From Odiellus spinosus (taxonomy: Eukaryota; Arthropoda; Arachnida; Opiliones; Phalangiidae): a stretch of 64,000 nt of DNA. The stretch lies in NCBI GenBank assembly GCA_963920705.1, contig OY987228.1:3409056-3473055 (forward strand), read 5' to 3'. Position numbers and translations under genes: made by a program. The notes beneath the pieces are model-generated. The model was given only the letters and a program-made list of their open reading frames with translations. It ran no database searches and was not told where the DNA came from. This document shows, piece by piece, positions 11,141-59,030 of this stretch; the first letter of the stretch is position 1, and each line of letters starts with the position of its first letter.

Positions 11141-11779
11141 ACACCATGAGGCTAATTTGCATTCGTTCCAAAAAGATGCTATATAAACCGTTCGAAGGCT
11201 TATATTAATTGAAGTAACCGTGCGTGGTGGCCATGAAGTTAGGGGGAAAACCCCCCCCCTTTCAATGTCTTGCTGATTCTTGATCTCTAGGCGCTTGGCG
11301 ACGCAATTTACCCATTGGTGGGGCGATGTTTGGAGTCAGTGGAAGGTTGATGTGAACTGTACTAGTAGGGGACGCCTCGCTAGTGTGGAACGCTGAGATC
11401 GGAAACTGGAGGTTGGACCTTGTTGTGGGGATGATCGGAGGTGATTATGACAGTGGGAGACGTCCCACTGCTTGTAATCGCCTTCGCCTGTTCAGCATCG
11501 AGGTTCGACCATAAAGTGGATGGTGGAAGGCGATGATGTGCAATGGGAGACGTCCTGTTGTATGTCTTTGCACGACACCTGAAACTCTATGTGGCAGCCA
11601 CGCTTAAAGGAGGTAATTCCCCGGAATTGAACGATAAGCTGGTATGATTACGTCTCTAGACTTTTGGCTCCACGATCCAGGTCACGTGACTTCCGTTTAC
11701 ACAGGAAGTGAGAAGTGACACACACACAGACACGATCAGTGTAACACCTCCCCCTGAACTAAAGTTCAGTCGGGGAGGT

Positions 11780-12295
11780 AAAAATCCAGACTATCCAGAA
11801 AACGTAAAAATAAGCCCTGTCCGATGCGTGTTAGACAATGGAAGTCAGGGCACCTTTGTTCTCGAGAAAACTGAGTCTCCCAGTTATTGGAGAGCAAGCC
11901 GTTTTGGTCACGGAGTTTGGGAAACGAAAATCCCGTCGAAAGAAAACGAAAAATAGTTAGAATCACGCTTCAAAACGCGCGGGCTCCGGAAAAGAAAATT
12001 CAATTAGAGGCGGTAGAAGTCCCGTATATATGTCGCGCAAAAATCATGAATTGCGAAGAAATTCGAAATTTCGTCGAAAGATAAAGAACGGGAGCCGAGC
12101 TCGCGGATGATCCGAACGAAACAAACCCAAGTAGCTCCAAGATTAGCGTTTTAATTGGCGGAGACTATTATTGGGACATAGTAAAAGAAAAACACGAGCG
12201 GTTGCGAAATAAACTAGTAGCTTTAGACACGATATTTGGTTGGACCATAGAGGGTCCCATGAGCACCCCAATTAAAAACTCATTTAATCACGGTC
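11780..12295 (+). pseudogene. BEL/Pao aspartic protease region and linker, broken
   Basis: The frame entering from the insert border reads VRCVLDNGSQGTFV, close to the BEL protease active-site form (hydrophobic-L-D-x-G-S-Q). Near 11925 the reading changes frame and continues through the second half of the domain to a stop at 12082-12084. After that stop the same frame reads VLIGGDYYWDIV, a motif typical of the protease to RT linker of BEL elements, then GWTIEGP. A further frame change near 12290 leads into the RT. The protease would cut the polyprotein, but this copy cannot make it in one piece. Confidence 0.8.
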
Positions 12296-17660: not shown

Positions 17661-17693
17661 TCGAGATTCCTTTAAACACGAAGTTGCGTAAAG

Positions 17694-18190
17694 TTTTTCA
17701 AATCATGTTTTTCAAATCATGTTTTTCAAATCATGTTTTTCAAATCATGTTTTTCAAATCATGTTTTTCAAATCATGTTTTTCAAATCATGTTTTTCAAA
17801 TCATGTTTTTCAAATCATGTTTTTCAAATCATGTTTTTCAAATCATGTTTTTCAAATCATGTTTTTCAAATCATGTTTTTCAAATCATGTTTTTCAAATC
17901 ATGTTTTTCAAATCATGTTTTTCAAATCATGTTTTTCAAATCATGTTTTTCAAATCATGTTTTTCAAATCATGTTTTTCAAATCATGTTTTTCAAATCAT
18001 GTTTTTCAAATCATGTTTTTCAAATCATGTTTTTCAAATCATGTTTTTCAAATCATGTTTTTCAAATCATGTTTTTCAAATCATGTTTTTCAAATCATGT
18101 TTTTCAAATCATGTTTTTCAAATCATGTTTTTCAAATCATGTTTTTCAAATCATGTTTTTCAAATCATGTTTTTCAAATCATGTTTTTCA
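17694..18190 (+). repeat. 14-bp minisatellite, about 35 copies
   Basis: The unit TTTTTCAAATCATG repeats about 35 times with almost no variation. Fourteen is not a multiple of three, so all + frames stay open across it, which explains three overlapping long open frames with an identical heptad-like pattern. These are not genes. Its homogeneity suggests recent slippage or unequal exchange. Confidence 0.95.
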
Positions 18191-18194
18191 ACTA

Positions 18195-30811: not shown

Positions 30812-31429
30812 AGTTAAACCGAGTCCTTAATTTAAATTTTATACAAAATGTACTCTCCTCCCCCGTCATGATCCAGTAGAAATTGTAAATTTTCCAATTA
30901 AAAGTGTATTTCTATAAACATCGCGACTGGGAAATGGGCCCCTAATTACTTTTATATAATGCTAATTAAAAGTCATTTTTATACTTAATATTTGCTCGAC
31001 AGAATCGTCATTAAGTAGTTTCTATAGAAAGTAAATAAAACAAGCAGGGATGCATTTTGTCTTACATAATTAGTAACCTAATTTCGCTTTTAATAAATGT
31101 ATATTTGTATTTTTTAAGCTGAAAAAGAATCAGATTTTGATTAAAATTACATTTTGAAAATTGTTTGTATAATTATTCGTAACAGTGATCCGTTTTTTTC
31201 TAATGCTGAAAAGTGTCATCAAAATAAACGATTCGAATTTCGCGCGTTGGTCCAATAAAATAGGATCCATGCCGTAACCATAGCAAATGCATCTTCCAAT
31301 CTCTCTCCTCCCGCTAGACTGCGCTCTCGTCAAGGTAACCCCTGTAAGGTTTCTCTAACCTCAAAGCAAAATGTGAAGACGAAAACAAGCGTTTTGAAAA
31401 ATTAAAAAGGACGAAGCGGTAGTTTGTTC
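30812..31429 (+). repeat. SART3: Duplicated segment, copy 2: 3' flank and SART3 promoter
   Basis: This continues the match to 23607-24840. It contains the region upstream of SART3 and the start codon position, but ATG has become AAG (near 31406). The match ends after seven codons where element B begins (31430). So this is a promoter copy cut by a transposon. Confidence 0.85.
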
Positions 31430-31625
31430 GGGTGGGCCTAATTGTCGCATATTTTATTGGCAAACCATTTTGGCAAACTTGTCGCAAGTTTGCCCAGGAC
31501 CCTATTTGACGCAAAATTTTATTTCCCTGCAAACTTGTCGCAAGTTTGCCATAACCCTAATTGACGCAATTTTTTTTTCCCTGCAAAACTGGCGCAAATT
31601 TTAATCATGCCAAAACCAATATAAA
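31430..31625 (+). mobile_element. Element B terminus with 58-bp subterminal repeats
   Basis: The end GGGTGGGCCTAATTGTCGCA and about 195 bases after it match, inverted, 55705-55917. Three subterminal repeats each combine TTGGCAAACTTGTCGCAAG-like sequence with AATTGACGCAA and CCCTGCAAA. No opposite end is found to the right, where the 146-bp satellite follows. The two parts may be one tandem-repeat-bearing element that lost its far end. Confidence 0.75.
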
Positions 31626-31779
31626 TACTAAAGAAATGGCGTTTATTGATAAGTCTAAACAAGTTTCTTCTACAATGATTTATTTAATTATGTATTTATT
31701 TCAAGAATATTATTAATAGTTATGGTGCAGGTTACAACAGGAAACATTTTAGGCCATTTTTTATGGTACCAAAATTTGT

Positions 31780-34700
31780 TTTTACCACGAAATTCGTTGG
31801 CGCAAGTTTTTTGAATAAGGGCAAACCATTTTCAAAAACCGGTTTTTCTGCCAGAAATTGGTAAGTTAACACCTGGATAATTTTTCTTAGGTACATACTA
31901 ATATATCCTTACCCATTCCAGCCGTTTTTAACACTAAATTCGTTGGCGCAAGTTTTTTGAATAAGGGCAAACCACTTTCAAAAACCTGTTTTTCTGCCAG
32001 AAATTGGTAAGTTACCACCTGGATAATTTTTCTTAGATACATACTAATATATCCTTACCCATTCCAGCCGTTTTTAGCACGAAATTCGTTGGCGCATGTT
32101 TTTTGAATAAGGGCAAACCACTTTCAAAAACCGGTTTTTCTGCAAGAAATTGGTAAGTTACCACCTGGATAATTTTTCTTAGGTACATACTAATATATTC
32201 TTACCCATTCCATCAGTCTTTAGCACGAAATTCGTTGGCGCATGTTTTTTGAATAAGGGCAAACCACTTTCAAAAACCGGTTTTTTTGCAAGAAATTGGT
32301 AAGTTACCACCTGGATAATTTTTCTTAGGTACATACTAATATATTCTTACCCATTCCAGCAGTTTTTAGCACGAAATTCGTTGGCGCAAGTTTTTTGAAT
32401 AAGGGCAAACGACTTTCAAAAACCGGTTTTTCTGCAAGAAATTGGTAAGTTACCACCTGCATAATTTTTCTTAGATACATACTAATATATCCTTACCCAT
32501 TCCAGCCGTTTTTAGCACGAAATTCGTTGGCGCATGTTTTTTGAATAAGGGCAAACCACTTTCAAAAACCGGTTTTTCTGCAAGAAATTGGTAAGTTACC
32601 ACCTGGATAATTTTTCTTAGGTACATACTAATATATTCTTACCCATTCCAGCAGTTTTTAGCACGAAATTCGTTGGCGCATGTTTTTTGAATAAGGGCAA
32701 ACCACTTTCAAAAACCGGTTTTTTTGCAAGAAATTGGTAAGTTACCACCTGGATAATTTTTCTTAGGTACATACTAATATATTCTTACCCATTCCAGCAG
32801 TTTTTAGCACGAAATTCGTTGGCGCATGTTTTTTGAATAAGGGCAAACCACTTTCAAAAACCGGTTTTTCTGCAAGAAATTGGTAAGTTACCACCTGGAT
32901 AATTTTTCTTAGATACATACTAATATATTCTTACCCATTCCAGCAGTTTTTAGCACGAAATTCGTTGGCGCAAGTTTTTTGAATAAGGGCAAACCACTTT
33001 CAAAAACCGGTTTTTCTGCAAGAAATTGGTAAGTTACCACCTGGATAATTTTTCTTAGGTACATACTAATATATTCTTACCCATTCCAGCAGTTTTTAGC
33101 ACGAAATTCGTTGGCGCATGTTTTTTGAATAAGGGCAAACCACTTTCAAAAACCGGTTTTTCTGCAAGAAATTGGTAAGTTACCACCTGGATAATTTTTC
33201 TTAGGTACATACTAATATATCCTTACCCATTCCATCAGTCTTTAGCACGAAATTCGTTGGCGCATGTTTTTTGAATAAGGGCAAACCACTTTCAAAAACC
33301 GGTTTTTTTGCAAGAAATTGGTAAGTTACCACCTGGATAATTTTTCTTAGGTACATACTAATATATTCTTACCCATTCCAGCAGTTTTTAGCACGAAATT
33401 CGTTGGCGCAAGTTTTTTGAATAAGGGCAAACGACTTTCAAAAACCGGTTTTTCTGCAAGAAATTGGTAAGTTACCACCTGGATAATTTTTCTTAGGTAC
33501 ATACTAATATATCCTTACCCATTCCAGCAGTTTTTAGCACGAAATTCGTTGGCGCATGTTTTTTGAATAAGGGCAAACCACTTTCAAAAACCGGTTTTTT
33601 TGCAAGAAATTGGTAAGTTACCACCTGGATAATTTTTCTTAGGTACATACTAATATATTCTTACCCATTCCAGCAGTTTTTAGCACGAAATTCGTTGGCG
33701 CATGTTTTTTGAATAAGGGCAAACCACTTTCAAAAACCGGTTTTTCTGCAAGAAATTGGTAAGTTACCACCTGGATAATTTTTCTTAGGTACATACTAAT
33801 ATATCCTTACCCATTCCAGCCGTTTTTAACACTAAATTCGTTGGCGCAAGTTTTTTGAATAAGGGCAAACCACTTTCAAAAACCGGTTTTTCTGCAAGAA
33901 ATTGGTAAGTTACCACCTGGATAATTTTTCTTAGGTACATACTAATATATCCTTACCCATTCCAGCCGTTTTTAACACTAAATTCGTTGGCGCAAGTTTT
34001 TTGAATAAGGGCAAACCATTTTCAAAAACCGGTTTTTCTGCCAGAAATTGGTAAGTTAACACCTGGATAATTTTTCTTAGGTACATACTAATATATCCTT
34101 ACCCATTCCAGCCGTTTTTAGCACGAAATTCGTTGGCGCATGTTTTTTGAATAAGGGCAAACCATTTTCAAAAATCGGTTTTTCTGCCAGAAATTGGTAA
34201 GTTAACACCTGGATAATTTTTCTTAGGTACATACTAATATATCCTTACCCATTCCAGCCGTTTTTAGCACGAAATTCGTTGGCGCAAGTTTTTTGAATAA
34301 GGGCAAACCACTTTCAAAAACCGGTTTTTCTGCAAGAAATTGGTAAGTTACCACCTGGATAATGTTTCTTAGGTACATACTAATATATTCTTACCCATTC
34401 CAGCAGTTTTTAGCACGAAATTCGTTGGCGCATGTTTTTTGAATAAGGGCAAACCACTTTCAAAAACCGGTTTTTTTGCAAGAAATTGGTAAGTTACCAC
34501 CTGGATAATTTTTCTTAGGTACATACTAATATATTCTTACCCATTCCAGCCGTTTTTAGCACGAAATTCGTTGGCGCATGTTTTTTGAATAAGGGCAAAC
34601 CATTTTCAAAAACCGGTTTTTCTGCCAGAAATTGGTAAGTTACCACCTGCATAATTTTTCTTAGATACATACTAATATATCCTTACCCATTCCAGCCGTT

Positions 34701-35170
34701 TTCAGCACGAAATTCGTTGGCGCAAGTTTTTTGAATAAGGGCAAACCACTTTCAAAAACCTGTTTTTCTGCCAGAAATTGGTAAGTTACCACCCTGATAA
34801 TTTTTATTAGTTACGTACTAATTTATTCTTACCCATTCCAGCAGTTTTTAGGCCGAAATTATTTTGCGCAAATTTTTGGAATGAGGGCAAACCATTTTTA
34901 CGCGAGTTTTTTAAATGAGGGCAAACCATTTCGAAAAACCGGTTTTTGTGCAAGAAAACGGTAAGTTACAACACTGATAATTTTTACTAGTTGTCTACTA
35001 ATTTATTCTTACCATTTCCAGCACTTTTTAAAGCAAAATTATTTTGCGTAAAGTTTTTGAATCAGGGCAAACCTTTTCCAAAAACCGGTTTTTCTGCAAG
35101 AAAACGGTAAGTTACAACACTGATAATTTTTATTAGTCACCTACTAATTTATTCTTACCATTTCCAGCAG
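31780..35170 (+). repeat. 146-bp satellite array, about 23 copies
   Basis: The unit holds ACGAAATTCGTTGGCGCA, TTTTTTGAATAAGGGCAAAC, CAAAAACCGGTTTTTCTGC and GGTAAGTTACCACCTGG, with a constant period of 146 bp (for example starts at 31891, 32037, 32183, 32329). Most units are 90-99% alike; the last three or four (from about 34790) are clearly diverged. GGCAAACCA and GCGCAAG phrases resemble the element B terminus. Array edges therefore show decay on the right only. The unit matches nucleosome length. Confidence 0.95.
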
Positions 35171-35920
35171 AGCAAGCTAAAGTCAGAATTTCATTTTCTT
35201 TGTGGAATGTAATTATTGCAAACTTCTTAAAAATTCGGATTTAATTTACCATTAATGATAGATTTTTGGTCAAATTTCAAAATTGCACATAAAAAAAATC
35301 CCCTCTTTTGCTTTTTCATCTCGAAATTAAATACTTTAATAATTTATTCTATTATTTCATTTGATTTCTAATTGATATTCACCAATTTCCATAAATTTCT
35401 GACCGGATTCCTTTTTCGCAAATTGACTTTTTGTCCTCTTCAAAGGTACGTTTAAGATATCAACTGCGTACACATAATTTTCATTTATTTCGCAAACTCG
35501 TCCCAAATTCAGAGTTTCTGCTTGGAGATGAATGTTACGGTATGTAATAGTATGAAGGTTACGGTATCAAATAGTATTTAAAACAATGGATGGTTATATA
35601 AAATGGGAAAATGGGAATATCTGTCCCAACCATGAAAAAGGGTACACTTATGTGGAAAAGTTAATTTTTAACTTTTTTTTTGGTTGCACTTGGTTCCAAG
35701 GTTGAGAAAAAGTATAGGATTTTCCATTTTATAATATGATCTATTCTATATTTATTCTAAAATAACATTTTACACAATTTCATTATTCAATCAGTTTCAA
35801 TTAATTTCGAAAAGTATTTATTTACCGATAGCCTCTTCAACATTGACCAGAATCTGTAGCAGACTATGCAACTGTTTTCCACGGGGGGTCGGGCATTCAA
35901 GGAAATCCCTTACGCTACCC
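35171..35920. other. Spacer between satellite arrays
   Basis: No gene is seen. A small inverted pair, TATAAAATGGGAAAAT near 35598 and ATTTTCCATTTTATA near 35722, may bound a decayed MITE. The rest is AT-rich, apart from a G run and GC-richer stretch near 35880-35920. Confidence 0.4.
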
Positions 35921-36157
35921 GCTGGATTATTCCACCAGATCCGCGACGGACGATATAGCTATAACCAATTTCAGACTAAGGTATAAACGAACGGATTTAT
36001 TCATTTTAAGCTGAATAACTACACGGTATATGAAAAAAAAACTAATTAAAACGAAAAAACATATTAATAATTGCTATACGTGTGTAAATGCGTTTCGTTT
36101 TAAATATAACTTTTCATCAAAACGGAATTTTTACAGGGAAATTAATCAATTTAGAAA

Positions 36158-39100
36158 GTGAACAATATGGGGTTATGGATTATGTCTCCGCTCACACACA
36201 TAGGAACTTTCTGAAATTAAAACATATTGTACAGTATTTAATTATCTATCCAATGGTACTAGAGTCATATCTGGGCCCTAAGCCGTTTTGGAGTTATTAA
36301 TAATAATTCACATAGAAAAAAATCTCAACTCAAAAATATACATATAGTAAATTGTTAGGGGGGGGGGGGTTGGAATTACTGCTAATATCTCCGCTCACAC
36401 ACATAGAAACCTTTTAAAATTAAAACATATTGTAGAGTATTTAATTATCTATCCAATGGTACTAGCGTCATATCTGGGCCCTAAGCCGTTTTGGAGTAAT
36501 TAATATTAATTCACATAGAGAAAAATCTCTTCTCAAAAATACCTACAGAAAATTGTTAGGGGGTTGGCATTTTGGTTAATATCTCCGCTCACACTCATAG
36601 GAACCTTTTGAAATTCAAACATATTGTAGAGTATTTAATTATCTATCCAATGGTACTAGCGTCATATCAGGGCCCTAAGCCGTTTTGGAGTTATTAATAA
36701 TAATTGACATAGAAAAAAACTCTACTCAAAAATATGCATATAGAAATTTGTTAGGGGGGTTGGAATTACAGCTAATATCTCCGCTCACACACATAGAAAC
36801 CTTTTAAAATTAAAACATATTGTAGAGAATTTAATTATCTATCCAATGGTACTAGCGTCATATCTGGGCCCTAAGCCGTTTTGGAGTTATTAATAATAAT
36901 TCACAAAGAAAAAAATCTCTACTTAAAAATATGCATATAGAAATTTTTAGGGGGGTTGGAATTACTGCTAATATCTCCGCTCACACACATAGGAACCTTT
37001 TGAAATTAAATCTTATTGTAGAGAATTTAATTATCTATCCAATGGTACTAGCGTCATATCTGGGCCCTAAGCCGTTTTGGAGTTATTAATAATAATTCAC
37101 AAAGAAAAAAATCTCTACTTAAAAATATGCATATAGAAATTTTTAGGGGGGTTGGAATTACTGCTAATATCTCCGCTCACACACATAGGAACCTTTTGAA
37201 ATTAAATCTTATTGTAGAGAATTTAATTATCTATCCAATGGTACTAGCGTCATATCTGGGCCCTAAGCCGTTTTGGAGTTATTAATAATAATTGACATAG
37301 AAAAAAACTCTACTCAAAAATATGCATATAGAAATTTGTTAGGGGGGTTGGAATTACTGCTAATATCTCCGCTCACACACATAGAAACCTTTTGAAATTA
37401 TAACATATTGTAGAGAATTTAATTATCTATCCAATGGTACTAGCGTCATATCTGGGCCCTAAGCCGTTTTGGAGTTATTAATAATAATTGACATAGAAAA
37501 ACACTCTACTCAAAAATATGCATATAGAAATTTGTTAGGGGGGTTGGAATTACTGCTAATATCTCCGCTCACACACATAGGAACCTTTTGAAATTAAAAC
37601 ATATTGAAGAGCATTTAATGATCTATCTAATGGTACTAGTGTCATATCTGGGCCCTAAGCCGTTTTGGAGTTATTAATAATAATTCACAAAGAAAAAAAT
37701 CTCTACTTAAAAATATACATATAGAAAATTGTTAGGGGGTCGGAATTACTGCTAATATCTCCGCTCACACACATAGGAACCTTTTGAAATTAAATCTTAT
37801 TGTAGAGAATTTAATTATCTATCCAATGGTACTAGCGTCATATCTGGGCCCCAAGCCGTTTTGGAGTTATTAATAATAATTCACAAAGAAAAAAATCTCT
37901 ACTTAAAAATATGCATATAGAAAATTGTTAGGGGGGTTGGAATTACTGCTAATATCTCCGCTCACACACATAGGAACCTTTTGAAATTAAATCTTATTGT
38001 AGAGAATTTAATTATCTATCCAACGGTACTAGCGTCATATCTGGGCCCTAAGCCGTTTTGGAGTTATTAATAATAATTGACATAGAAAAAAACTCTACTC
38101 AAAAATATGCATATAGAAATTTGTTAGGGGGGTTGGAATTACTGCTAATATCTCCGCTCACACACATAGAAACCTTTTGAAATTATAACATATTGTAGAG
38201 AATTTAATTATCTATCCAATGGTACTAGCGTCATATCTGGGCCCTAAGCCGTTTTGGAGTTATTAATAATAATTCACAAAGAAAAAAATCTCTACTTAAA
38301 AATATGCATATAGAAATTTTTAAGGGGGTTGGAATTACTGCTAATATCTCCGCTCACACACATAGGAACCTTTTGAAATTAAATCTTATTGTAGAGAATT
38401 TAATTATCTATCCAATGGTACTAGCGTCATATCTGGGCCCTAAGCCGTTTTGGAGTTATTAATAATAATTGACATAGAAAAACACTCTACTCAAAAATAT
38501 GCATATAGAAATTTGTTAGGGGGGTTGGAATTACTGCTAATATCTCCGCTCACACACATAGGAACCTTTTGAAATTAAAACATATTGAAGAGCATTTAAT
38601 GATCTATCCAATGGTACTAGTGTCATATCTGGGCCCTAAGCCGTTTTGGAGTTATTAATAATAATTGACATAGAAAAAAACTCTACTCAAAAATATGCAT
38701 ATAGAAATTTGTTAGGGGGGTTGGAATTACTGCTAATATCTCCTTTCACACACATAGAAACCTTTTGAAATTATAACATATTGTAGAGAATTTAATTATC
38801 TATCCAATGGTACTAGCGTCATATCTGGGCCCTAAGCCGTTTTGGAGTTATTAATAATAATTGACATAGAAAAACACTCTACTCAAAAATATGCATATAG
38901 AAATTTGTTAGGGGGGTTGGAATTACTGCTAATATCTCCGCTCACACACATAGGAACCTTTTGAAATTAAAACATATTGAAGAGCATTTAATGATCTATC
39001 TAATGGTACTAGTGTCATATCTGGGCCCTAAGCCGTTTTGGAGTTATTAATAATAATTCACAAAGAAAAAAATCTCTACTTAAAAATATACATATAGAAA

Positions 39101-42100
39101 ATTGTTAGGGGGTCGGAATTACTGCTAATATCTCCGCTCACACACATAGGAACCTTTTGAAATTAAATCTTATTGTAGAGAATTTAATTATCTATCCAAT
39201 GGTACTAGCGTCATATCTGGGCCCCAAGCCGTTTTGGAGTTATTAATAATAATTCACAAAGAAAAAAATCTCTACTTAAAAATATGCATATAGAAAATTG
39301 TTAGGGGGGTTGGAATTACTGCTAATATCTCCGCTCACACACATAGGAACCTTTTGAAATTAAATCTTATTGTAGAGAATTTAATTATCTATCCAACGGT
39401 ACTAGCGTCATATCTGGGCCCTAAGCCGTTTTGGAGTTATTAATAATAATTGACATAGAAAAAAACTCTACTCAAAAATATGCATATAGAAATTTGTTAG
39501 GGGGGTTGGAATTACTGCTAATATCTCCGCTCACACACATAGAAACCTTTTGAAATTATAACATATTGTAGAGAATTTAATTATCTATCCAATGGTACTA
39601 GCGTCATATCTGGGCCCTAAGCCGTTTTGGAGTTATTAATAATAATTCACAAAGAAAAAAATCTCTACTTAAAAATATGCATATAGAAATTTTTAAGGGG
39701 GTTGGAATTACTGCTAATATCTCCGCTCACACACATAGGAACCTTTTGAAATTAAATCTTATTGTAGAGAATTTAATTATCTATCCAATGGTACTAGCGT
39801 CATATCTGGGCCCTAAGCCGTTTTGGAGTTATTAATAATAATTGACATAGAAAAACACTCTACTCAAAAATATGCATATAGAAATTTGTTAGGGGGGTTG
39901 GAATTACTGCTAATATCTCCGCTCACACACATAGGAACCTTTTGAAATTAAAACATATTGAAGAGCATTTAATGATCTATCCAATGGTACTAGTGTCATA
40001 TCTGGGCCCTAAGCCGTTTTGGAGTTATTAATAATAATTCACAAAGAAAAAAATCTCTACTTAAAAATATACATATAGAAAATTGTTAGGGGGTTGGAAT
40101 TACTGCTAATATCTCCGCTCACACACATAGGAACCTTTTGAAATTAAATCTTATTGTAGAGAATTTAATTATCTATCCAATGGTACTAGCGTCATATCTG
40201 GGCCCTAAGCCGTTTTGGAGTTATTAATAATAATTCACAAAGAAAAAATCTCTACTTAAAAATATACATATAGAAAATTGTTAGGGGGTTGGAATTACTG
40301 CTAATATCTCCGCTCACACACATAGGAACCTTTTGAAATTAAATCTTATTGTAGAGAATTTAATTATCTATCCAATGGTACTAGCGTCATATCTGGGCCC
40401 TAAGCCGTTTTGGAGTTATTAATAATAATTCACAAAGAAAAAAATCTCTACTTAAAAATATGCATATAGAAATTTTTAGGGGGGTTGGAATTACTGCTAA
40501 TATCTCCGCTCACACACATAGGAACCTTTTGAAATTAAATCTTATTGTAGAGAATTTAATTATCTATCCAATGGTACTAGCGTCATATCTGGGCCCTAAG
40601 CCGTTTTGGAGTTATTAATAATAATTGACATAGAAAAAAACTCTACTCAAAAATATGCATATAGAAATTTGTTAGGGGGGTTGGAATTACTGCTAATATC
40701 TCCGCTCACACACATAGAAACCTTTTGAAATTATAACATATTGTAGAGAATTTAATTATCTATCCAATGGTACTAGCGTCATATCTGGGCCCTAAGCCGT
40801 TTTGGAGTTATTAATAATAATTGACATAGAAAAACACTCTACTCAAAAATATGCATATAGAAATTTGTTAGGGGGGTTGGAATTACTGCTAATATCTCCG
40901 CTCACACACATAGGAACCTTTTGAAATTAAAACATATTGAAGAGCATTTAATGATCTATCCAATGGTACTAGTGTCATATCTGGGCCCTAAGCCGTTTTG
41001 GAGTTATTAATAATAATTCACAAAGAAAAAAATCTCTACTTAAAAATATACATATAGAAAATTGTTAGGGGGTTGGAATTACTGCTAATATCTCCGCTCA
41101 CACACATAGGAACCTTTTGAAATTAAATCTTATTGTAGAGAATTTAATTATCTATCCAATGGTACTAGCGTCATATCTGGGCCCTAAGCCGTTTTGGAGT
41201 TATTAATAATAATTCACAAAGAAAAAAATCTCAACTTAAAAATATGCATATAGAAAATTGTTAGGGGGGTTGGAATTACTGCTAATATCTCCGCTCACAC
41301 ACATAGGAACCTTTTGAAATTAAATCTTTTTGTAGAGAATTTAATTATCTATCCAATGGTACTAGCGTCATATCTGGGCCCTAAGCCGTTTTGGAGTTAT
41401 TAATAATAATTGACATAGAAAAAAACTCTACTCAAAAATATGCATATAGAAATTTGTTAGGGGGGTTGGAATTACTGCTAATATCTCCGCTCACACACAT
41501 AGAAACCTTTTGAAATTATAACATATTGTAGAGAATTTAATTATCTATCCAATGGTACTAGCGTCATATCTGGGCCCTAAGCCGTTTTGGAGTTATTAAT
41601 AATAATTGACATAGAAAAAAACTCTACTCAAAAATATGCATATAGAAATTTGTTAGGGGGGTTGGAATTACTGCTAATATCTCCGCTCACACACATAGGA
41701 ACCTTTTGAAATTAAATCTTATTGTAGAGAATTTAATTATCTATCCAATGGTACTAGCGTCATATCTGGGCCCTAAGCCGTTTTGGAGTTATTAATAATA
41801 ATTCACAAAGAAAAAAATCTCTACTTAAAATATACATATAGAAAATTGTTAGGGGGTTGGAATTACTGCTAATATCTCCGCTCACACACATAGGAACCTT
41901 TTGAAATTAAATCTTATTGTAGAGAATTTAATTATCTATCCAATGGTACTAGCGTCATATCTGGGCCCTAAGCCGTTTTGGAGTTATTAATAATAATTGA
42001 CATAGAAAAAAACTCTACTCAAAATTATGCATATAGAAATTTGTTAGGGGGGTTGGAATTACTGCTAATATCTCCGCTCACACACATAGGAACCTTTTGA

Positions 42101-42390
42101 AATTAAAACATATTGAAGAGCATTTAATGATCTATCCAATGGTACTAGTGTCATATCTGGGCCCTAAGCCGTTTTGGAGTTATTAATAATAATTCACAAA
42201 GAAAAAAATCTCTACTTAAAAATATACATATAGAAAATTGTTAGGGGGTTGGAATTACTGGTAATATCTCCGCTCACACACATAGGAACCTTTTGAAATT
42301 AAATCTTATTGTAGAGAATTTAATTATCTATCCAATGGTACCAGCGTCATATCTGGGCCCTAAGCCGTTTTGGAGTTATTAATAATAATT
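36158..42390 (+). repeat. 196-bp satellite, left arm, about 32 units
   Basis: Each unit carries ATCTCCGCTCACACACATAG, TTATCTATCCAATGGTACTA, GCGTCATATCTGGGCCCTAA and GCCGTTTTGGAGTTATTAAT. Spacing is about 196 bp (GGGCCC at 36866, 37062, 37258, 37454). Variants recur at 1373 bp: GGGGGTCGGAATT near 37741 and 39114, GGGCCCCAAGCC at 37847 and 39220, CCAACGGTACTAG near 38021 and 39394. This means a block of seven units was duplicated. The first units at 36158-36600 differ most. Confidence 0.97.
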
Positions 42391-42948
42391 AATAATAAGA
42401 AATGATATTTTAATTATATCTAACTTTTAAACTAGGCGAGGCCCAGATATCAGACTAGTTTCATTCGATAGATAATTAAATTCTCTATAACATATTTAAA
42501 TTCGATATCGATCCTATGTGTGTGAGGGGAGTTATAAGGCAAAATATCCCCCCTTGCAGAACTTGGAAAAAAAATGGAAATGATATTTTCTTAAATTTAA
42601 CTATCTCTAACTTTTAAACTAGGCGAGGCCCAGATATCACACTAGTTTCATTCGATAGATAAATAAATTCTCTATAACATATTTAAATTTGATATCGATC
42701 CTATGTGTGTGAGGGGAGTTATAAGACAAAATATCCCCCTTTGCAGAACTTGGAAAAAAAATGGAAATGATATTTTCTTAAATTTAACTATCTCTAACTT
42801 TTAAACTAGGAGAGGCCCAGATATCAGACTAAATTCATTCGATAGATAATTAAATTCTCTATAACATAGTTAAATTTGATATGGATCCTATGTGTTTGAC
42901 AGGAGTTGTAAGTCAAAGTACCCTACGTACAAGCTATGTTATAGATAG
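42391..42948 (-). repeat. Diverged inner satellite, left part, three ~188-bp units
   Basis: The units carry AGGCGAGGCCCAGATATCAG and ATTCGATAGATAATTAAATT, with GGCCCAG near 42436, 42624 and 42812. Read on the minus strand they align with the 196-bp satellite (TTATCTATCGAATG, ATATCTGGGCC). They are its distant relative, placed in the opposite orientation to the left arm. Confidence 0.9.
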
Positions 42949-42949
42949 A

Positions 42950-43125
42950 GATCGGGGTTTGGACAAGAAAATTTCTGATTATTTTATCTTTATTCATAAC
43001 TTAAAATTTTTCGAAAAACGTCTATAATAAATCCAATGTAATCGCGAATAATTTTCCGATTATTTTTTTATGATTAACCGATTAACTAATAGTTGTGGAT
43101 TATTTTGTCCAAACCCCGATCTCTA
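42950..43125. mobile_element. Small TIR element at the centre of the inner palindrome
   Basis: GAGATCGGGGTTTGGACAA near 42950 pairs with TTGTCCAAACCCCGATCTC ending near 43124, and TA stands on both sides. A TA duplication fits the Tc1/mariner type. The ~175-bp element is AT-rich and non-coding and separates the two inner satellite arms. Confidence 0.75.
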
Positions 43126-43840
43126 GTTATAGAGAATTTATTTATCTATCGAATGAAACTAGTCTGATATCTGGGCCTCGCCTAGTTTAAAAGTTAGATT
43201 AGTTAAATTTAAGAAAATATCATTTCCATTTTTTTTTCAAGTTCTGCAAGGGGGGAGGGGTATTTTGCCTTATAACTCCCCTCACACACATAGGACCGAT
43301 ATCAAATTTAAATATGTTATAGAGAATTTAATCATCTATCGAATGAAACTAGTGTGATATCTGGGCCTCGTTTAGTTTAAAAGTTAGAGATAGTTAAATT
43401 TAAGAAAATATCATTTCCATTTTTTTTTTCCAAGTTCTGCAAGGGGGGATATTTTGTCTTATAACTCCCCTCACACACATAGGATCGATATCAAATTTAA
43501 CTATGTAATAGAGAATTTAATTATCTATCGAATGAAACTAGTGTGATATATGGGCCTCGCCTAGTTTAAAAGTTAGATATAGTTAAAATTAAGAAAATAT
43601 CATTTCCTTTTTTTTTTTCCAAGTTCTGCAAGGGGGGATATTTTGTCTTATAACTCCCCTCACACACATAGGATCGATATCAAATTTAAATATGTTATAG
43701 AGAATTTAATTATCTATCGAATGAATTTAGTCTGATATCTGGGCCTCGCCTAGTTTAAAAGTTAGAGATAGTTAAATTTAAGAAAATATCATTTCCATTT
43801 TTTCCCAAGTTCTGCGGGGGAGGGAGTATAATTTGTTTCT
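43126..43840 (+). repeat. Diverged inner satellite, right part, four ~190-bp units
   Basis: The units repeat TTATCTATCGAATGAAACTA, GATATCTGGGCCTCG and AGTTCTGCAAGGGGGG, in the inverse orientation to 42391-42948, forming the inner palindrome. The array ends at the next TIR element. Confidence 0.9.
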
Positions 43841-43850
43841 ATGTGTGTGA

Positions 43851-44375
43851 GCAGAAGCCGGTGAAACCCTCCTTTGAAGTCTATTACTCCCGGGTCATGT
43901 CTACCCCTCTCTGTATGGGTTAGTTTCAAAAAGCGCGATTCGTACGCCTCCTAACGGTAGAAAATATCGGAGCGGGAGCTCGTTGAGTGACTATCTCTAG
44001 CAGCCTTGGAGTTCGTCAAAACTCGCGTATTACTTAAAAATTAAATATCATTACACGAGGAATGTGCTGATCAATGTTGCCCCTGTTTTTAACTCTAATT
44101 TGACATAGGTTACGTGATCTGAGTTTTATTGACCAGTATCTTGGTTCGTTTAATTGTGCAAAAAGATAATTCCGGTTTCGTGTCGAGAAAAGTCGGCGCA
44201 CGAATAAAAACGTCGTCGTTTGTGGAGAGAGAGAATTTCCAATTTTCCGTAGACAGGGGGTATGAAGTAGGACCCCTCCGATCTCGTAAAATTGTGAATT
44301 TTACCTATACAGAGAGGAGCGCTATATGGAACATTAGAGTTGTAGACTTCAAAGGAGGGTTTCATCGGCTTCTGG
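43851..44375. mobile_element. TIR element C, 525 bp, TSD TGTGA
   Basis: The ends CAGAAGCCGGTGAAACCCTC and its inverse GAGGGTTTCATCGGCTTCTG lie in inverted repeats of about 40 bp. TGTGA flanks both sides (43846-43850 and 44376-44380). A shorter copy lies at 53348-53686 and lacks about 190 bases of the middle found here (about 44028-44209). Open frames inside (MKPSFEVYN, MTSILVR) are products of the repeat and show no transposase motif. It sits exactly at the join between inner and outer satellites. Confidence 0.9.
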
Positions 44376-44380
44376 TGTGA

Positions 44381-46935
44381 GCTTAGATATTAACCAAAAT
44401 TCCAACCCCCTCCCTATCAATTTGCCGTAGGTATTTTTGAGTAGAGATTTTTATGTAAATTAATATTAATTACTTCAAAACGGCTTAGGGCCCAGATATG
44501 ACGCTAGTACCATTGGATAGATCATTAAATACTCTTCAATATGTTTTATTTTCAAAAGGTTCCTATGTGTGTGAGCGGAGATATTAGCAGTAATTCCAAC
44601 CCCCCTAACAAATTTAGTAGTTTTCAGTAAAGGGGCAAAAGATAATTCCTCCCCTCTTACCCAGCTTTGCTTTCATTCCCAGGTTGCCAGGAGCTTGTGA
44701 GTGCAGTTCAGAACAGATCAGTTTCAAAACTGAACTCTAGCCTTTCCCTCTGCACTCACAAGTGGTTGGCAACATGGGGGGAACGGCACTTACCCCCTTT
44801 AGTGAAAACTATGTATGCATATTTTTGAGTAGAGTTTTTTTCTATGTCAATTATTATTAATAACTCCAAAACGGCTTAGGGCCCAGATATGACGCTAGTA
44901 CCATTGGATAGATAATTAAATTCTCTACAATAAGATTTAATTTCAAAAGGTTCCTATGTGTGTGAGCGGAGATATTAGCAGTAATTCCAACCCCCTAACA
45001 ATTTTCTTTATGTATATTTTTAAGTAGAGATTTTTTTCTTTGTGAATTATTATTAATAACTTTAAAACGGCTTAGGGCCCAGATATGACGCTAGTACCAT
45101 TGGATAGATAATTAAATTCTCTACAATAAGATTTAATTTCAAAAGGTTCTTATGTGTGTGAGCGGAGATATTAGCAGTAATTCCAACCCCCCTAACCATT
45201 TTCTATATGCATATTTTTAAGTAGAGATTTTTTTCTTTGTGAATTATTATTAATAACTCCAAAACGGCTTAGGGCCCTGATATGACGCTAGTACCATTGG
45301 ATAGATAATTAAATACTCTACAATATGTTTTAATTTCAAAAGGTTCCTATGTGTGTGAGCGGAGATATTAACCAAAATGCCAACCCCCTAACAATTTTCT
45401 GTAGGTATTTTTGAGAAGAGATTTTTCTCTATGTGAATTAATATTAATTACTCCAAAACGGCTTAGGGCCCAGATATGACGCTAGTACCATTGGATAGAT
45501 AATTAAATACTCTACAATATGTTTTAATTTTAAAAGGTTTCTATGTGTGTGAGCGGAGATATTAGCAGTAATTCCAACCCCCCTAACAAATTTCTATATG
45601 CATATTTTTGAGTAGAGTTTTTTTCTATGTCAATTATTATTAATAACTCCAAAACGGCTTAGGGCCCAGATATGACGCTAGTACCATTGGATAGATAATT
45701 AAATTCTCTACAATATGTTTTAATTTCAAAAGGTTTCTATGTGTGTGAGCGGAGATATTAGCAGTAATTCCAACCCACCCTAACAATTTACTATATGTAT
45801 ATTTTTGAGTTGAGATTTTTCTCTATGTGAATTAATATTAATTACTCCAAAACGGCTTAGGGCCCAGATATGACGCTAGTACCATTGGATAGATAATTAA
45901 ATACTCTACAATATGTTTTAATTTTAAAAGGTTTCTATGTGTGTGAGCGGAGATATTAGCAGTAATTCCAACCCCCCTAACAAATTTCTATATGCATATT
46001 TTTGAGTAGAGTTTTTTTCTATGTGAATTATTATTAATAACTCCAAAACGGCTTAGGGCACTGATATGACGCTAGTACCATTGGATAGATAATTAAATAC
46101 TCTACAATATGTTTTAATTTCAAAAGGTTCCTATGTGTGTGAGCGGAGATATTAACCAAAATGCCAACCCCCTAACAATTTTCTGTAGGTATTTTTGAGA
46201 AGAGATTTTTCTCTAAGTGAATTAATATTAATTACTCCAAAACGGCTTAGGGCCCAGATATGACGCTAGTACCATTGGATAGATAATTAAATTCTCTACA
46301 ATATGTTTTAATTTCAAAAGGTTCCTATGTGTGTGAGCGGAGATATTAGCAGTAATTCCAACCCCCCTAACAAATTTCTATATGCATATTTTTGAGTAGA
46401 GTTTTTTTCTATGTCAATTATTATTAATAACTCCAAAACGGCTTAGGGCCCAGATATGACGCTAGTACCATTGGATAGATAATTAAATTCTCTACAATAT
46501 GTTTTAATTTCAAAAGGTTTCTATGTGTGTGAGCGGAGATATTAGCAGTAATTCCAACCCACCCTAACAATTTACTATATGTATATTTTTGAGTTGAGAT
46601 TTTTTTCTATGTGAATTATTATTAATAACTCCAAAACGGCTTAGTGCCCAGATATGACGCTAGTACCATTGGATAGATAATGAAATTCTCTACAATATGT
46701 TTTAATTTCAAAAGGTTCCTATGTGTGTGAGCGGAGATATTAGCAGTAATTCCAACCCACCCTAACAATTTACTATATGTATATTTTTGAGTTGAGATTT
46801 TTTTCTATGTGAATTATTATTAATAACTCCAAAACGGCTTAGGGCCCAGATATGACGCTAGTACCATTGGATAGATAAGTAAATACTCTACAATATGTTT
46901 TAATTTCAGAAATTTCCTATGTGTGTGAGCGGAGA
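44381..46935 (-). repeat. 196-bp satellite, right arm, about 13 units inverted
   Basis: These are the same units as the left arm on the other strand (CTCCAAAACGGCTTAGGGCC, TAGTACCATTGGATAGATAA). Unit variants differ from the left arm, with two-unit patterns such as CCAAAATGCCAACCCCC alternating with GCAGTAATTCCAACCC. One unit is split by the element at 44615-44812. The arm is about 40% of the left arm's length, so the palindrome is lopsided. Confidence 0.95.
44615..44812. mobile_element. ~195-bp TIR element within a satellite unit
   Basis: AGTTTTCAGTAAAGGGGCAA on the left pairs with CCCCCTTTAGTGAAAACT on the right. Inside, CTTGTGAGTGCAG and CTGCACTCACAAG form a second inverted pair. The host unit resumes at TATGCATATTTTTGAG, so the insertion split one satellite monomer. 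Confidence 0.8.
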
Positions 46936-47233
46936 CATAATCCATAACCCCATATTGTTCACTTTCTAAATTGATTAATTTCCCTGTAAAAATTCCGTTT
47001 TGATGAACGTGGGCGGCACAATTGATTATCTGTTAAAAAGTTATATTTAAAACGAAACGCATTTACACACGTATAGCAATTATTAATATGTTTTTTCGTT
47101 TTAATTAGTTTTTTTTTCATATACCGTGTAGTTATTCAGCTTAAAATGAATAAATCCGTTCGTTTATACCTTAGTCTGAAATTGGTTATAGCTATATCGT
47201 CCGTCGCGGATCTGGTGGAATAATCCATCCAGC

Positions 47234-47485
47234 GACGATACGCTTTATTAGGGCGTATTCTGGCAGATTGACGGTGGTTGTAGATACATCCTTAACAGCT
47301 CCGATGCAACACGTCTGTTTAGGTAGGATACTCAATTAATATAGTTTAACATTTGTTTATATTGATTTTTAGGGTGTATTGAAGGCTAGTACGTTATCTA
47401 TATTAAAATATAAGAATGCATTTCCTCTTTTTTCAGTGCGAACTTAAATCTAAGCCTTCACACTTAAACCTAAGCAGGGCCCGCC
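47234..47485. other. Spacer, no gene seen
   Basis: AT-rich sequence between the outer palindrome border and the duplicated ZNFX1 segment. No motif is recognised. Confidence 0.4.
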
Positions 47486-49029
47486 GCCCGGGGTATAGTT
47501 AGACTCTATTACCTGAGTTTGCTTTTGGGGTAATTCAATCGGGAATTTGTGAATCACAATCGCTTAAAAGGATATGACCATAGATATTGAAATGGGGGCC
47601 TTGCAGTAAAATGGTATTTTGGCTGGATCAAAGGTGGGGAATGATTACTTCGCATGGTGGAATTATTGCAAGACTAGTGCTTCACAAAGAGCTTTGATTA
47701 AGGCCCACCTATGCGCTAGATATATTGAGACACTTAAAGAACTTTTCCAGGAATGCTCCCCTTGTAAAACTCGACCCTCTTTCTGGTATTAAAAGAGAAT
47801 GTCTTTTGAAAAAGGACACAGAATAGAATAGAAGTGTAAAAATTAGAAAGATTACAATAAGGAATAATGGCGATTTTTCACCTCAGCATGCAAGAAAAAT
47901 CATATTTTTCATACGCTAAATGAAAAACGTTGATTGAAAACAGAGTATGACTTGTCCTCTACCAATCATCCTTGAAAATACTCCTAGGAATGTCAAGCTT
48001 TACAATGCACCATCGAGCGTTTCATATTGCCAGTCTGCTTGGATATCCACCCCTTGAAAACCATCTTCAGTACTAATAAGCCGCGTTTTCAATCAACATT
48101 TTTCAAGCTTTTCTTACACTTTTCCAAGGCAAGCTTATAACACGTTCATTCAGATATGCTCTTTGTCATGACTTAAAGGATAGCTGAAATGAAGTATTTT
48201 TTTTTCTGATTCCTTATGTAAAAATATGCTCCCCTGAATTTTACCATAATTTTTGTAGTACAAATACTATTAGGAAAGATTTTTTTAAAGTTTTATGTCC
48301 TAAACATGCATTTGAATTTCTCTACTATTTCCAAGAAGCCAAGGAAACGAAGAGCCCATCCCACGACCTACTAAAATAAAATCGTAGAACCCCTAGCGAC
48401 ATCTAGGTGATAACATAGAGAACTTCGTTTAAATTTCGGGTTTGATTTTTATAAAAATTTGGTTTATAAAAGATTTGTAGGCATCATTATCTTCAAAAGT
48501 TCGTAACTAGCAAAGCTTATAGTTTTTAAAATGTAGCTGCTTCTTCAATTGGAGAGAATTACTAAACTATTCTATTTCAAATCTTCAATTTAAAGCAGTA
48601 TCTTTATACTGATATCACTAGATGTCGCTAGTAGTTCTACGATCTCACTTTGATAGAGCCTCCGGTAATTGGCTCTTAGCTCTGATTGGTCCTTTGGCAA
48701 CAGTGAAAAATTAAAACACATAGCTAAGCCTAATTAAGTTTTAAATAATTTTTTAAAAAATGTGAAAAAATTCAGCAGGATGTATTTAATAGCAAGGAAT
48801 CAGATAAAAATTAAAATGGGTACGAAATTTTCACCTAGTAATCTTCCTTTAAACAAAAAGCTTGATATAAAGATTCTAATTTTTTTGAAGAAAAAGTTTG
48901 ATTCTTGACCAAAATAATATTTATTGAAAACCCATCAAGAATGCAACTTTAAATAGGCTCTTCAAATTGCAGTTAATCACTTTAAATGGTTATTTATATA
49001 TTTTCAGGTAAAAAAACAGAAAACCAAAA

Positions 49030-49804
49030 ATGAATCAGAAAAAGCTACTTAAAAATTGTCCTACAAATCTCACCAAAATAAAATGCAACCAATCTTCAAC
49101 GGGAAAGCTGATAAAATATAATGAAAATCCAATAAGCCTTGAAGATTTACAAAACCAAACACCCAAAGAGATTGTGTTGTTCATAAACTCGAACCTTGAT
49201 TGGTTTAACGAAATTTTAAACATGTCTTGCATGGAAAATGACAACTTTTGTTTGTGTTTAAGCATCATTTCGAAGACTTGTGATTTAGAAACAATTGAAA
49301 CACTGTACACGTTTCTAGAACATTTACTAAATGTAAATGAAAAGTTCTTGAATGATCACATCGTGACGTATTTGTTAGAAACCCAAAGAAGTGGCATCAA
49401 TGAAACGTGTTTGAAAAACATTGTAAAATTAATCGAAACACTGCTGAAATTACACCCACACAGTTCCATCAAAACTTCGCAAACACTTTTACCATTGGTT
49501 AGGGATAGTGCCACACGATTGGACAATACCAGTGATATCTTGCTTAAATTGGACGAATTAGATTTGGTGAAAAATAGCCTATTGGACGATTATAATTTCA
49601 TATACAATGGAGGAAATGCCACTGTAGAAGTTCCAAATGATTTCAGGAATATCCCAATTTTTCCGGACAAACAAGATTTGATTGTCAATACTAGACCATT
49701 TTTGAGGCCGAATATAGTAGAGGGACGATATGCTAACCCTAATCACTACTTGGATGTCCAATTTAGGCTTTTACGGGAAGATTTTGTCCGACCACTACGA
49801 CAAG
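49030..49804 (+). pseudogene. ZNFX1: ZNFX1 first coding exon, duplicate copy, cut from the gene
   Basis: The exon begins at MNQKKLLKNCPTNL after an AG (CAG at about 49006-49008) and ends with a GT donor after the codons for DFVRPLRQ. It is 258 codons and has no stop. NIVEGRYANPNHYLDVQFRL and LREDFVRPLR are the ZNFX1 motif before the helicase part, and the helical leucine-rich first half is the armadillo-like N-terminal domain. It differs from copy B by one residue (Pro for Ser in NIPIF/NISIF). The next exon does not follow; Copia sequence starts at 50595. If it were transcribed, it could only yield a truncated N-terminal product. Confidence 0.88.
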
Positions 49805-50023
49805 GTAATCAAATTAGTTTAGGTTGAAGTTTGATTAGGGTAGGGAGTTCATAAAGTTTAGCTTCCTGATCTCATTGTTTTATACATATAGTCTTTAATC
49901 CTTACAGTGGATTTACAGTTGATGGTGTTTTTAGGGATTATTGGGATAGTACCACGATTTGTTTGAATAGAGACTAACCCCCCACCCCCACTAACGATTT
50001 TGGTGCACATGTGATCTCTATAC

Positions 50024-50057
50024 CATGGAACTAATCAACTAGTTGATTAGTTCCATG
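50024..50057. repeat. Perfect 34-bp palindrome
   Basis: CATGGAACTAATCAACT followed directly by its exact reverse complement, with no spacer. It lies in the first intron of the duplicated ZNFX1 segment and recurs at 58460-58493. Confidence 0.95.
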
Positions 50058-50594
50058 TCTATACCAATGTAAGAACACATGCGAAGCTTTATACTATTTT
50101 AACATTTCGTTTAGAAAGAGATAAATTATAGTACTTTCCGCATCCTTGTATTTTTAATGAAATATTGGCTTATCTAGGGATTCGTCGTGTCTAATGAATT
50201 TGATAAAACTATGCAAACTTCTTATAACATGGATAACATGTGCAAGAAGGATCATCTCTGGATTGCTAGATGAGTTGTGGTGCCAATATCCCATTGAAAA
50301 TACGTGGTAGATGCGTGAAGTACTTGAATTTTTCTCCCAAACAAACATTAAAATTGCCTAAAACTTTGCACGGGCTCCTCCCATATCGAAAAAAATTTGT
50401 CTGATCTGAAGAGGTCCTCAAGAACACTACAAAAGTCTTGGTTGATGTCTTTAAGACTTCCCCAAGACTTCTTGACACGATGAAAGACTTCCCCAGAACC
50501 TCTTAAGACTACATAGACACCCGAAAGACTTCATATTTTTTACCTTTATCCGCTTCTAAAAGAATAATGCTCCTCTGAATTAAACAAAATTTCT

Positions 50595-54860: not shown

Positions 54861-54873
54861 AGACGCCGGTATC

Positions 54874-55917
54874 GGGTGGGCCTAATTGTCGCATATTTTA
54901 TTGGCAAACCATTTTGGCAAACTTGTCGCAAGTTTGCCCTGTGCCCGTATTCTGCAAATTTTTTCCCCCCGAAGCGAAGCCCAACCTCCTCTCCTAAGCT
55001 CTCTGATTCGTTAGCCAGCAATTGCGTCACATTATTCTAGGGTTTTTAATTGGTTATGACGTAATTAACCTAAGTCATTTCATTCGATGAACACAACATT
55101 GACAAACTTTGCAGAATGAATTCGGTTCAGTTCTATGCTAGATTGTCACTGCCATAGAAAGAGAGGCAGAGCGGAGAGTCATCCCAGTAGCCAGTAACAA
55201 CCCGTGTGACCAGAATCAGATGAGCAAATTAAATTCAACGAGCACAAAGAGGAAATCACTTAGTCCGTCACGAGATCAGTCAGTATCCAGTTTACCACGA
55301 GATCAGTCAGTATCTAGTTTATCACGAGATCAGTCAGTACCTAGTACGTCACGAGGCCAGTCATTTCAGCTGGACGTAAGAATACGACCTCAGATAGAAA
55401 TGGAGCAGCAACTTCCAAAATTAAGACCAAATTCTCATAGACTAAAGCCAGTATGGCAAAGAGACTATAAAATGTGATTTGTAAAAGAGACTAAAGGGGG
55501 GAGATGTTTAGGGACGCTAGAGGGCGCCTTTAGAGTACCCTAGGTGTAGAGTACTGAGTAGTGACCTTAGGGTCACCACTGACATAGCAGACGAGTAACG
55601 GGAAACATACACTGCAGCAGTTGTACCTAAGTTATGAAGAACTATTAAACAAATGTATTATATTAGATCCTCGACTGGTTATTTATTAACGCACGTTAAC
55701 AGCCAGGTTTGCAGGGAAAAAAATTTGCGTCAATTAGGGTTATGGCAAACTTGCGACAAGTTTGCAGGGAAAAACAATTTGCGTCAATTAGGGTTATGGC
55801 AAACTTGCGACAAGTTTGCAGGGAAAAAAAATTTGCGTCAAATAGGGTCCAGGGCAAACTTGCGACAAGTTTGCCAAAATGGTTTGCCAATAAAATATGC
55901 GACAATTAGGCCCACCC
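54874..55917. mobile_element. Element B copy with ~66-bp TIRs
   Basis: The ends GGGTGGGCCTAATTGTCGCA and TGCGACAATTAGGCCCACCC lie in inverted repeats of about 66 bp. The right end carries three 58-bp subrepeats (55705-55870), as at 31430-31625. A Gypsy remnant fills the middle. The right border touches the start of duplicate copy B (55922). Confidence 0.8.
55220..55701 (+). mobile_element. Gypsy-type remnant: pol end, polypurine tract and 3' LTR
   Basis: A frame 55220-55477 ends in NSHRLKPVWQRDYKM, like the C-terminus of Gypsy polyproteins. It contains a repeated eight-residue block (SRDQSVSSL). A purine-rich tract (AAAGGGGGGAGA, near 55493-55504) is followed by a TG...CA sequence of 197 bp, 55505-55701, which fits a short LTR. 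No matching 5' LTR is in the window, so the family call is an inference. Confidence 0.6.
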
Positions 55918-55921
55918 CTCT

Positions 55922-58900: not shown

Positions 58901-59030
58901 AGACTTCTTGACACGATGAAAGACTTCCCCAGAACCTCTTAAGACTACATAGACACCCGAAAGACTTCATATTTTTTACCTTTATCCGCTTCTAAAAGAA
59001 TAATGCTCCTCTGAATTAAACAAAATTTCT
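55922..59030 (+). repeat. 3109-bp duplicated segment, copy B
   Basis: This copy continues into the rest of ZNFX1, so it is the one still joined to a gene. It begins just after element B. Confidence 0.95.

Follow-up and report, generated by a model that had tools for sequence, protein, structure and literature searches.

The 64,000-bp stretch of the Odiellus spinosus genome analyzed here (the window; contig C4, GenBank OY987228.1, positions 3,409,056-3,473,055) contains a palindrome of satellite arrays at 35923-47278 which, judged from its sequence, is very probably a non-autonomous, rearranged copy of a Rehavkus-like family of DNA transposons, fold-back elements with arms made of satellite DNA. 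The palindrome is an unusual variant of a known fold-back kind. It reads O A+(32) b-(3) b+(4) A-(13) and an inverted O, where O is the outer end, A the 196-bp satellite and b the satellite B written in the orientation of A. Throughout, C-numbers denote contigs of the assembly, which comprises 443 Mb in 286 contigs, and L-numbers denote fetched loci.

The best inverted match within the feature extends over 2,448 columns at 92.9% identity and scores 3,620 bits, against 47 bits for the best among 100 mononucleotide shuffles. The left and right O ends are identical at all aligned sites, with ~30 inner bases absent on the left, and carry common private changes relative to 18 other ends. Satellites A and B are 70.6% identical over 293 columns and 79-81% in a core of ~95 bases. 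In the BLAST map the order is O+, A+ (32 units), B+ (3), B- (4), A- (2, then 11) and O-; since B(+) of this map is the strand homologous to A(-), the satellites run +, -, +, - in homologous orientation. A first-pass annotation, made from the letters alone, had described this order as well as outer ends that are inverted copies of each other, and both descriptions are borne out; Tandem Repeats Finder (TRF) delimits the satellite arrays (Table 1). It had placed the feature at 35921-47233; the feature is real, its left start lies at 35923 and its right end, which includes a 51-bp terminus, at 47278. The outer ends that it called unique are a dispersed repeat of the genome. Its palindrome inside a palindrome stands as to the layer order; the inner layer has the wrong orientation for a simply nested element, and part of the centre consists of inserted small elements with terminal inverted repeats (TIRs), three in all.

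Dispersed copies, their ends and their coding interior

A 300-bp query from the left end returned at least 22 near-full-length rows genome-wide, the two of the window among them; the best 40 of 231 candidates were scored, and row counts are therefore a lower bound. Most aligned ends start 51 bp further out, at ACCACCGTCAATC..., and the flanks beyond are unrelated. The window has this terminus on the right; end alignment did not find it at the left end. Many O ends occur as facing pairs across the genome, and exact 9-bp target duplications (AAGAACTTT, CAAAAACAC, TTCCAGTGG, ACTGTCGAT and GAAATTTTC) are present at 5 of 13 terminus pairs, namely C1 8.1k, C12 4.65M, C14 5.65M, C2 20.98M and C1 8.41M. 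The 13 pairs leave out C14 18.9M (right terminus truncated), C9:859k/917k and the ends on C8, C5, C13 and C18 4.8M. The genome search for the outer end that the first-pass annotation had suggested as a check has thus given recurring loci with the same terminus and target duplications, and its concern that the outer ends might never be found together elsewhere is removed by the facing pairs. Two sets of copies have flanks in common and are not independent: C10 has the o-side flank of C1 8.1k, and C73 has one flank in common with C9:917k. The hybrids on C1 (L028) and C10 (L025/L026) share one flank and differ in the other, and C1 retains its 9-bp duplication, so that C10 may have arisen by recombination or as a duplicate in the assembly.

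The copies fall into two sister subfamilies, one with O ends and satellite A, the other with o ends and satellite B; the outer 112 bp are common to O and o ends at 89% identity. The small O/O copy at C12 14.37M (~2.3 kb) reads O A+ A- O. Among the large O/O copies, that on C18 measures 24,315 bp between termini; that on C9 spans 35 kb from end to end and has an additional A array inside; and on C14 the ends are 23 kb apart, the right terminus is truncated and no match to the transposase was seen. Among the B-type copies, C14 5.65M, whose ends were fetched, has 12.9 kb between its termini and an exact duplication; others are C6 9.63M, C12 5.16M and an o-end pair on C13. Hybrids with one O and one o end are found at C1 8.1k, C12 4.65M, C16, C10, C2 20.98M and C1 8.41M, four of the six with exact duplications. 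Arms with two satellites each thus also occur outside the window, at C12 5.16M (order o b+ A+ A- b- o), at C1 8.41M and in other O/o hybrids. In the hybrids on C12, C1 8.1k, C16 and C10 the right arm switches from A to B inside the common motif CCTATGTGTGTGAG, as expected from recombination between arrays. The o ends of these four are identical over 241 bases, and those of C2 20.98M and C1 8.41M are 90% like this group's o-end query.

A arms range from ~2 to ~47 monomers among the fetched copies. For 238 of 250 monomers from 10 elements, mean identity was 96.9% within the arm, 95.8% with the partner arm and 95.7% with other elements; monomers are alike locally inside arms, and partner arms are hardly more alike than different elements. 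A search for the terminus or the O end inside A and B monomers gave nothing beyond weak matches (E 0.27 or worse).

The 24.3-kb copy on C18 contains an uninterrupted frame of 2,471 codons, stop to stop, and C9:911k and its likely duplicate C73 encode 756 residues without a stop. The interior common to C18, C9 and C73 is 94-97% identical in the main blocks and 88% over in-frame repeats. The frame matches Pfam UCH (35.5 bits, cut-off 23.9; confined to profile positions 184-239 of 254) and Ulp1/C48 (28.2 bits, cut-off 20.7), with a weak match to the PHD finger PF00628 (E 6.3e-4; 20.2 bits, under the 24-bit cut-off). All solved structures that it matches up to E 0.1 are proteases, either sentrin-specific or Ulp1, the best at E 6e-4. 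By eye, the Ulp1 catalytic residues can be assigned to H in EGHFF, D in VYDS, and Q and C in KQDNGYDCG; in the paralogue L039 this Q is replaced by E. L039, at ~40% identity, keeps the motifs D (WDATG/WDGTG), D (SSDRS), CG-CH and E (QGHVEG/QGHIEG); this reading, likewise by eye, suggests a DDE core. The frame also has 27- and 54-bp repeats, in frame and on the N-terminal side of the PHD match, and at L010 3905-4595, between the stop codon of the frame and the arm, there is a 27-bp minisatellite. On the opposite strand a further open frame, 578 codons long, consists mostly of 30- and 18-bp repeats and had no match in a search against Pfam. The MULE model of Pfam (PF10551) gave no support for membership, as none of the transposase loci is among its 111 genome matches up to E 1; hmmscan of the frame up to E 10 gave no MULE match. 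The C18 copy is flanked on both sides by a ~0.88-kb stretch in the same direction (L010 70-941 and L012 5266-6141, 97.5% identical).

Recurring facing ends, duplications at 5 of 13 pairs and a 24-kb relative with an open transposase-like frame uphold the mobile-element reading given in the first-pass annotation. Long tandem-repeat inverted arms, dispersal and target duplication, the structural marks of the fold-back class, are all found in the family. Several findings weigh against this interpretation. An exact 9-bp duplication is absent from 8 of the 13 terminus pairs, including all four O/O pairs (C12 14.37M, 2.3 kb; C18, 24 kb; C9, 35 kb; C2, 57 kb, whose left end also belongs to a duplication-matching pair), the B-type pairs C12 5.16M and C6, and the hybrids C16 and C10. 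As no O/O pair tested has a duplication, the transposase-bearing copies are not shown as single insertions. The window copy has a complete terminus on one side only and, when tested, had no target duplication. Given the identity of their o ends over 241 bases, four of the hybrids probably go back to a single one. The transposase core was assigned by eye, the last ~20 residues of the C18 frame depart from the C9/C73 protein, which they match in another frame, and a genome search with the MULE model (111 matches up to E 1) hit no transposase locus of the element.

Formation of the copy in the window

The window copy appears to be a one-off composite, built from parts of hybrids and later struck by three small TIR elements (Table 1). 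A genome-wide search for its two A/B junctions, allowing up to 3 mismatches, found them nowhere else, and there is hence no sign of this composite having transposed. The idea of one ~11-kb element with two layers, put forward in the first-pass annotation, is not supported for this copy: its junctions were found nowhere else, its B layer is misoriented and carries an o-end remnant, and its left terminus and any target duplication are lost. Up to ...CAAGCTAT the remnant matches the b/o junction seen in L021, L024 and L028 except at 1 base.

Table 1. Positions of the parts of the palindrome, of the elements inserted in it and of its left neighbour (numbering of the window)
Feature	Position	Strand	Remarks
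Half of second fold-back family F	31778..35922	+	146-bp satellite and inner arm; outer limit provisional
Left O end	35923..36184	+	without outer 51-bp terminus and ~30 inner bases
Left arm, satellite A	36185..42390	+	~32 monomers; TRF array of 196 bp, 31.6 copies
Satellite B, right-arm orientation	42409..42937	-	~3 monomers (TRF array of 187 bp, 42409-42917) plus innermost o-end remnant (to 42937)
Small TIR element, repeated family	42946-43125		8-bp duplication GTTATAGA at 42938-42945 and 43126-43133
Satellite B, left-arm orientation	43126..43803	+	~4 monomers (TRF array of 189 bp), joined to broken o end
TIR element, repeated family	43853-44374		8-bp duplication GTGTGAGC at 43845-43852 and 44375-44382
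Right arm, satellite A, inner part	44398..44615	-	2 units
Small TIR element	44620-44809		GTTTTC...GAAAAC, TA duplication
Right arm, satellite A	44814..46935	-	~11 units; TRF array of 196 bp
Right O end	46936..47227	-
Right 51-bp terminus	47228..47278	-	ACCACCGTC... read inward

In the proposed mechanism, a transposase from a large copy would act on the outer ~112 bp common to O and o ends, so that facing ends could move jointly, whatever the sequence between them. A and B arrays, alike over a core of ~95 bp, would recombine, altering arm length and swapping end types. Parts of two O...o hybrids may then have been joined tail to tail (O A+ b- (o lost) b+ A- O), with the o ends mostly lost in the join, after which the three small TIR elements would have inserted into the composite. 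A separate break would have fused the left end to half of the fold-back F, removing the left target duplication. With its left end fused to the F half and the left duplication gone, the copy can probably no longer move as one unit. The identical O ends with their private changes favour a single source or homogenised ends.

A single step might instead have produced the centre: an inverted copy of one hybrid of the same family (O A+ b- o), made from a point near its o end, for which fold-back replication or hairpin repair offers a possible route. Such an inverted duplication competes with the tail-to-tail step only, and we regard it as possible, if rather doubtful. The mirror-symmetric order, the location of the joint just inside an o end, and O ends identical at aligned sites with private changes in common all speak for it. 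The B monomers of the two halves are nearest to monomers of other copies and not to each other, and the A/B junction on the left cuts the monomers at another point than the one on the right; these findings argue against the duplication and also make the tail-to-tail history only one of several. Identical ends are, moreover, also seen in an ordinary copy, the 2.3-kb element on C12.

The remaining explanations are weaker still. Joining of separate fold-back copies by the assembly is improbable: long near-identical repeats assemble poorly, and C73/C9 and C10/C1 have common flanks, but elements with their own duplications are inserted across the centre, and each junction has a single occurrence in the genome. 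B-type copies with two o ends do exist (C14 5.65M, C12 5.16M, C6 9.63M), so that one might have inserted into the centre of an A-type fold-back; we consider this very unlikely, as a nested B would read o b+ ... b- o, whereas the window has b- and then b+ with an o remnant between, and simple nesting was rejected on this orientation, which only a circular, permuted form of the insert would reconcile. Repeated inverted duplication of satellite DNA at a fragile site without transposition, the alternative named in the first-pass annotation, is just as hard to credit: the locus is rearranged, with half of F on the left and a large tandem gene array on the right, but dispersed copies, a precise terminus, 9-bp duplications and the coding interior of related copies largely refute it for the family, which has no need of it, and what stands of it is that rearrangement did shape this copy.

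The first two of the inserted TIR elements belong to repeated families, with 1,733 first-look candidates in the genome for 42946-43125 and 607 for 43853-44374, of which 40 were scored in each case. The second element holds a stretch of ~184 bp lacking in the relatives listed.

Left and right edges of the copy

Paired F arms around a loop of ~460-490 bp are found on C2, C5, C6 and C11. The F half in the window ends at the F loop boundary and runs into O just inside the O terminus, with CGCT in common; this joint explains the absent left terminus and duplication. A repeat with 54-bp units occurs in both orientations around the locus (31428-31601, 54872-54964 and 55747-55917). The proposal that the repeat at 31428-31601 and 54872-55917 is the end of F was not borne out, as two F stretches match it weakly (at most 30 bases, E 0.005); these two fetched stretches may stop short of the ends of F.

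On the right, the segment 47299-50594 starts 20 bp past the fold-back end and aligns collinearly, if with gaps, to a locus on C17, which holds the sole close relative (96%) of the ZNFX1-like exon of the window outside C4 (others 36-67%). The ZNFX1 assignment rests on PDB entry 9q9z (E 1.4e-44). The gene belongs to an array of ~0.8 Mb (C4 3.46-4.29 Mb) with a commonest spacing of ~17.5 kb, whose left edge lies in the window at 47299-50594 and 55916-64000 (also L050). A search with 47270-47640, in which the best 40 of 48 candidates were scored, gave 40 rows, 39 on C4, of which the window has two; in the remainder of C4, 19 of the 30 spacings between plus-strand rows and 2 of the 5 between minus-strand rows measure 17.3-17.65 kb. 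The helicase exon has 42 matches on C4 at 99-100% (41 full length, 3 with an in-frame stop), two further matches at 97% and some fragments. Array copies are on the plus strand in the window, on the minus strand at 3.48-3.66 Mb and on the plus strand again from 3.67 Mb, which makes two switches. Among the rows of the 47270-47640 search, the 177 bp closest to the fold-back have matches at this site and on C17 alone, and this may therefore be the founding edge of the array. A literature search on ZNFX1 expansion in insects found no such report, only mammalian interferon-response work.

One idea is that the hybrid-prone fold-back and the half F beside it mark a site of breakage, and that a ZNFX1-like gene with a relative on a different contig arrived there, 20 bp away, and then multiplied to more than 40 copies; we hold this to be unlikely. 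A role of the satellite arms as homology modules is more likely than this role in the array: recombination between A and B would swap end types and arm lengths and yield mobile hybrids, for which the four hybrid sites with exact 9-bp duplications speak.

The window has several other repeats. The segments 47480-50594 and 55916-59030 form a 3,115-bp direct duplication (99.87% identity), both starts of which match gene-array units, and the block between them holds an RVT_2 reverse transcriptase, which we take to be of Copia type. A 14-bp repeat, GTTTTTCAAATCAT, is present in 35.6 perfect copies at 17693-18191. Remains of a Pao-type retrotransposon at 6305-15741 include DUF1759, reverse transcriptase, A17 peptidase and integrase zinc-binding domains, and an integrase core domain match under the cut-off. 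TTAGG, a telomere motif fitting for an arthropod, occurs in runs in the genome, with one long run close to the end of C1.

Comparison with known systems

The FB/NOF elements of D. melanogaster have tandem-repeat inverted arms and are known for rearrangements; the arms are alike in kind, and the repeat units of FB/NOF are much shorter than those found here. Satellite-armed fold-backs are suspected sources of satellite DNA and of rearrangements. One genome here holds a large copy with an open transposase-like frame, small deletion forms, two sister lineages of satellite, mobile hybrids whose ends do not match and a composite shaped by rearrangement, and this set of copies permits tests of how satellite arms grow, whether the repeat units serve the transposase and whether fold-backs break chromosomes.

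We describe the family as Rehavkus-like, by its likeness to the structure described for that group. In the passages on it in PMC6446971, Rehavkus is a MULE-related group or outgroup of MULEs with a 9-bp duplication, a PHD finger and a minisatellite before the 3' TIR, and the table there gives a TIR length of 26-400 bp and places a minisatellite at the C-terminus. Two structural features are shared: the 9-bp duplication, exact here at 5 of 13 pairs, and satellite or minisatellite DNA in or before the TIRs, here the 196/189-bp arms and the 27-bp repeat. The C-terminal minisatellite is not found, the in-frame repeats here being N-terminal to the PHD match and the other 27-bp repeat lying past the stop; on this and the points that follow, we did not file the family as a member. 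The terminus and O end together span ~340 bp before the satellite, against the 26-400 bp of Rehavkus, and the inverted arms extend to kilobases; the PHD finger of Rehavkus has its counterpart here in the match to PF00628 that scores under its cut-off. Neither UCH nor Ulp1 is named in the passages of PMC6446971 on Rehavkus, 'Ulp1' occurring 0 times in its main text, and a literature search for a transposon combining Ulp1, a PHD finger and MULE found no report.

As described in part of PMC10218199, Rehavkus-1_TC of Tribolium castaneum is 9.5 kb long and carries the 164-bp TCsat23 in its inverted termini, mostly as 5 and 8 monomers. It is alike in being a DNA transposon with a satellite array in inverted termini; the family here differs in size (C18, 24.3 kb), in its 196/189-bp units, in having two satellite lineages and in its hybrid ends. 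A survey of arthropod MULEs gives sizes of 1.4-10.0 kb and, in its accessible portion, treats Rehavkus as outgroup only (PMC13359780), and a review of giant transposons, in the sections available, mentions foldback once, for composite elements in Drosophila (PMC6431247).

By the portions of PMC4079207 that describe it, Tetris of Drosophila virilis is the closest described analogue of the arm structure: a fold-back with TIR tandem repeats of ~220 bp, 8-10-bp duplications and rearranged forms, whose repeats feed satellite arrays and of which one TIR repeat, TIR-220, is described (PMC4079207). No transposase-encoding copy of Tetris had been found there in 2014 (PMC4079207), whereas in O. spinosus one copy has an open frame.

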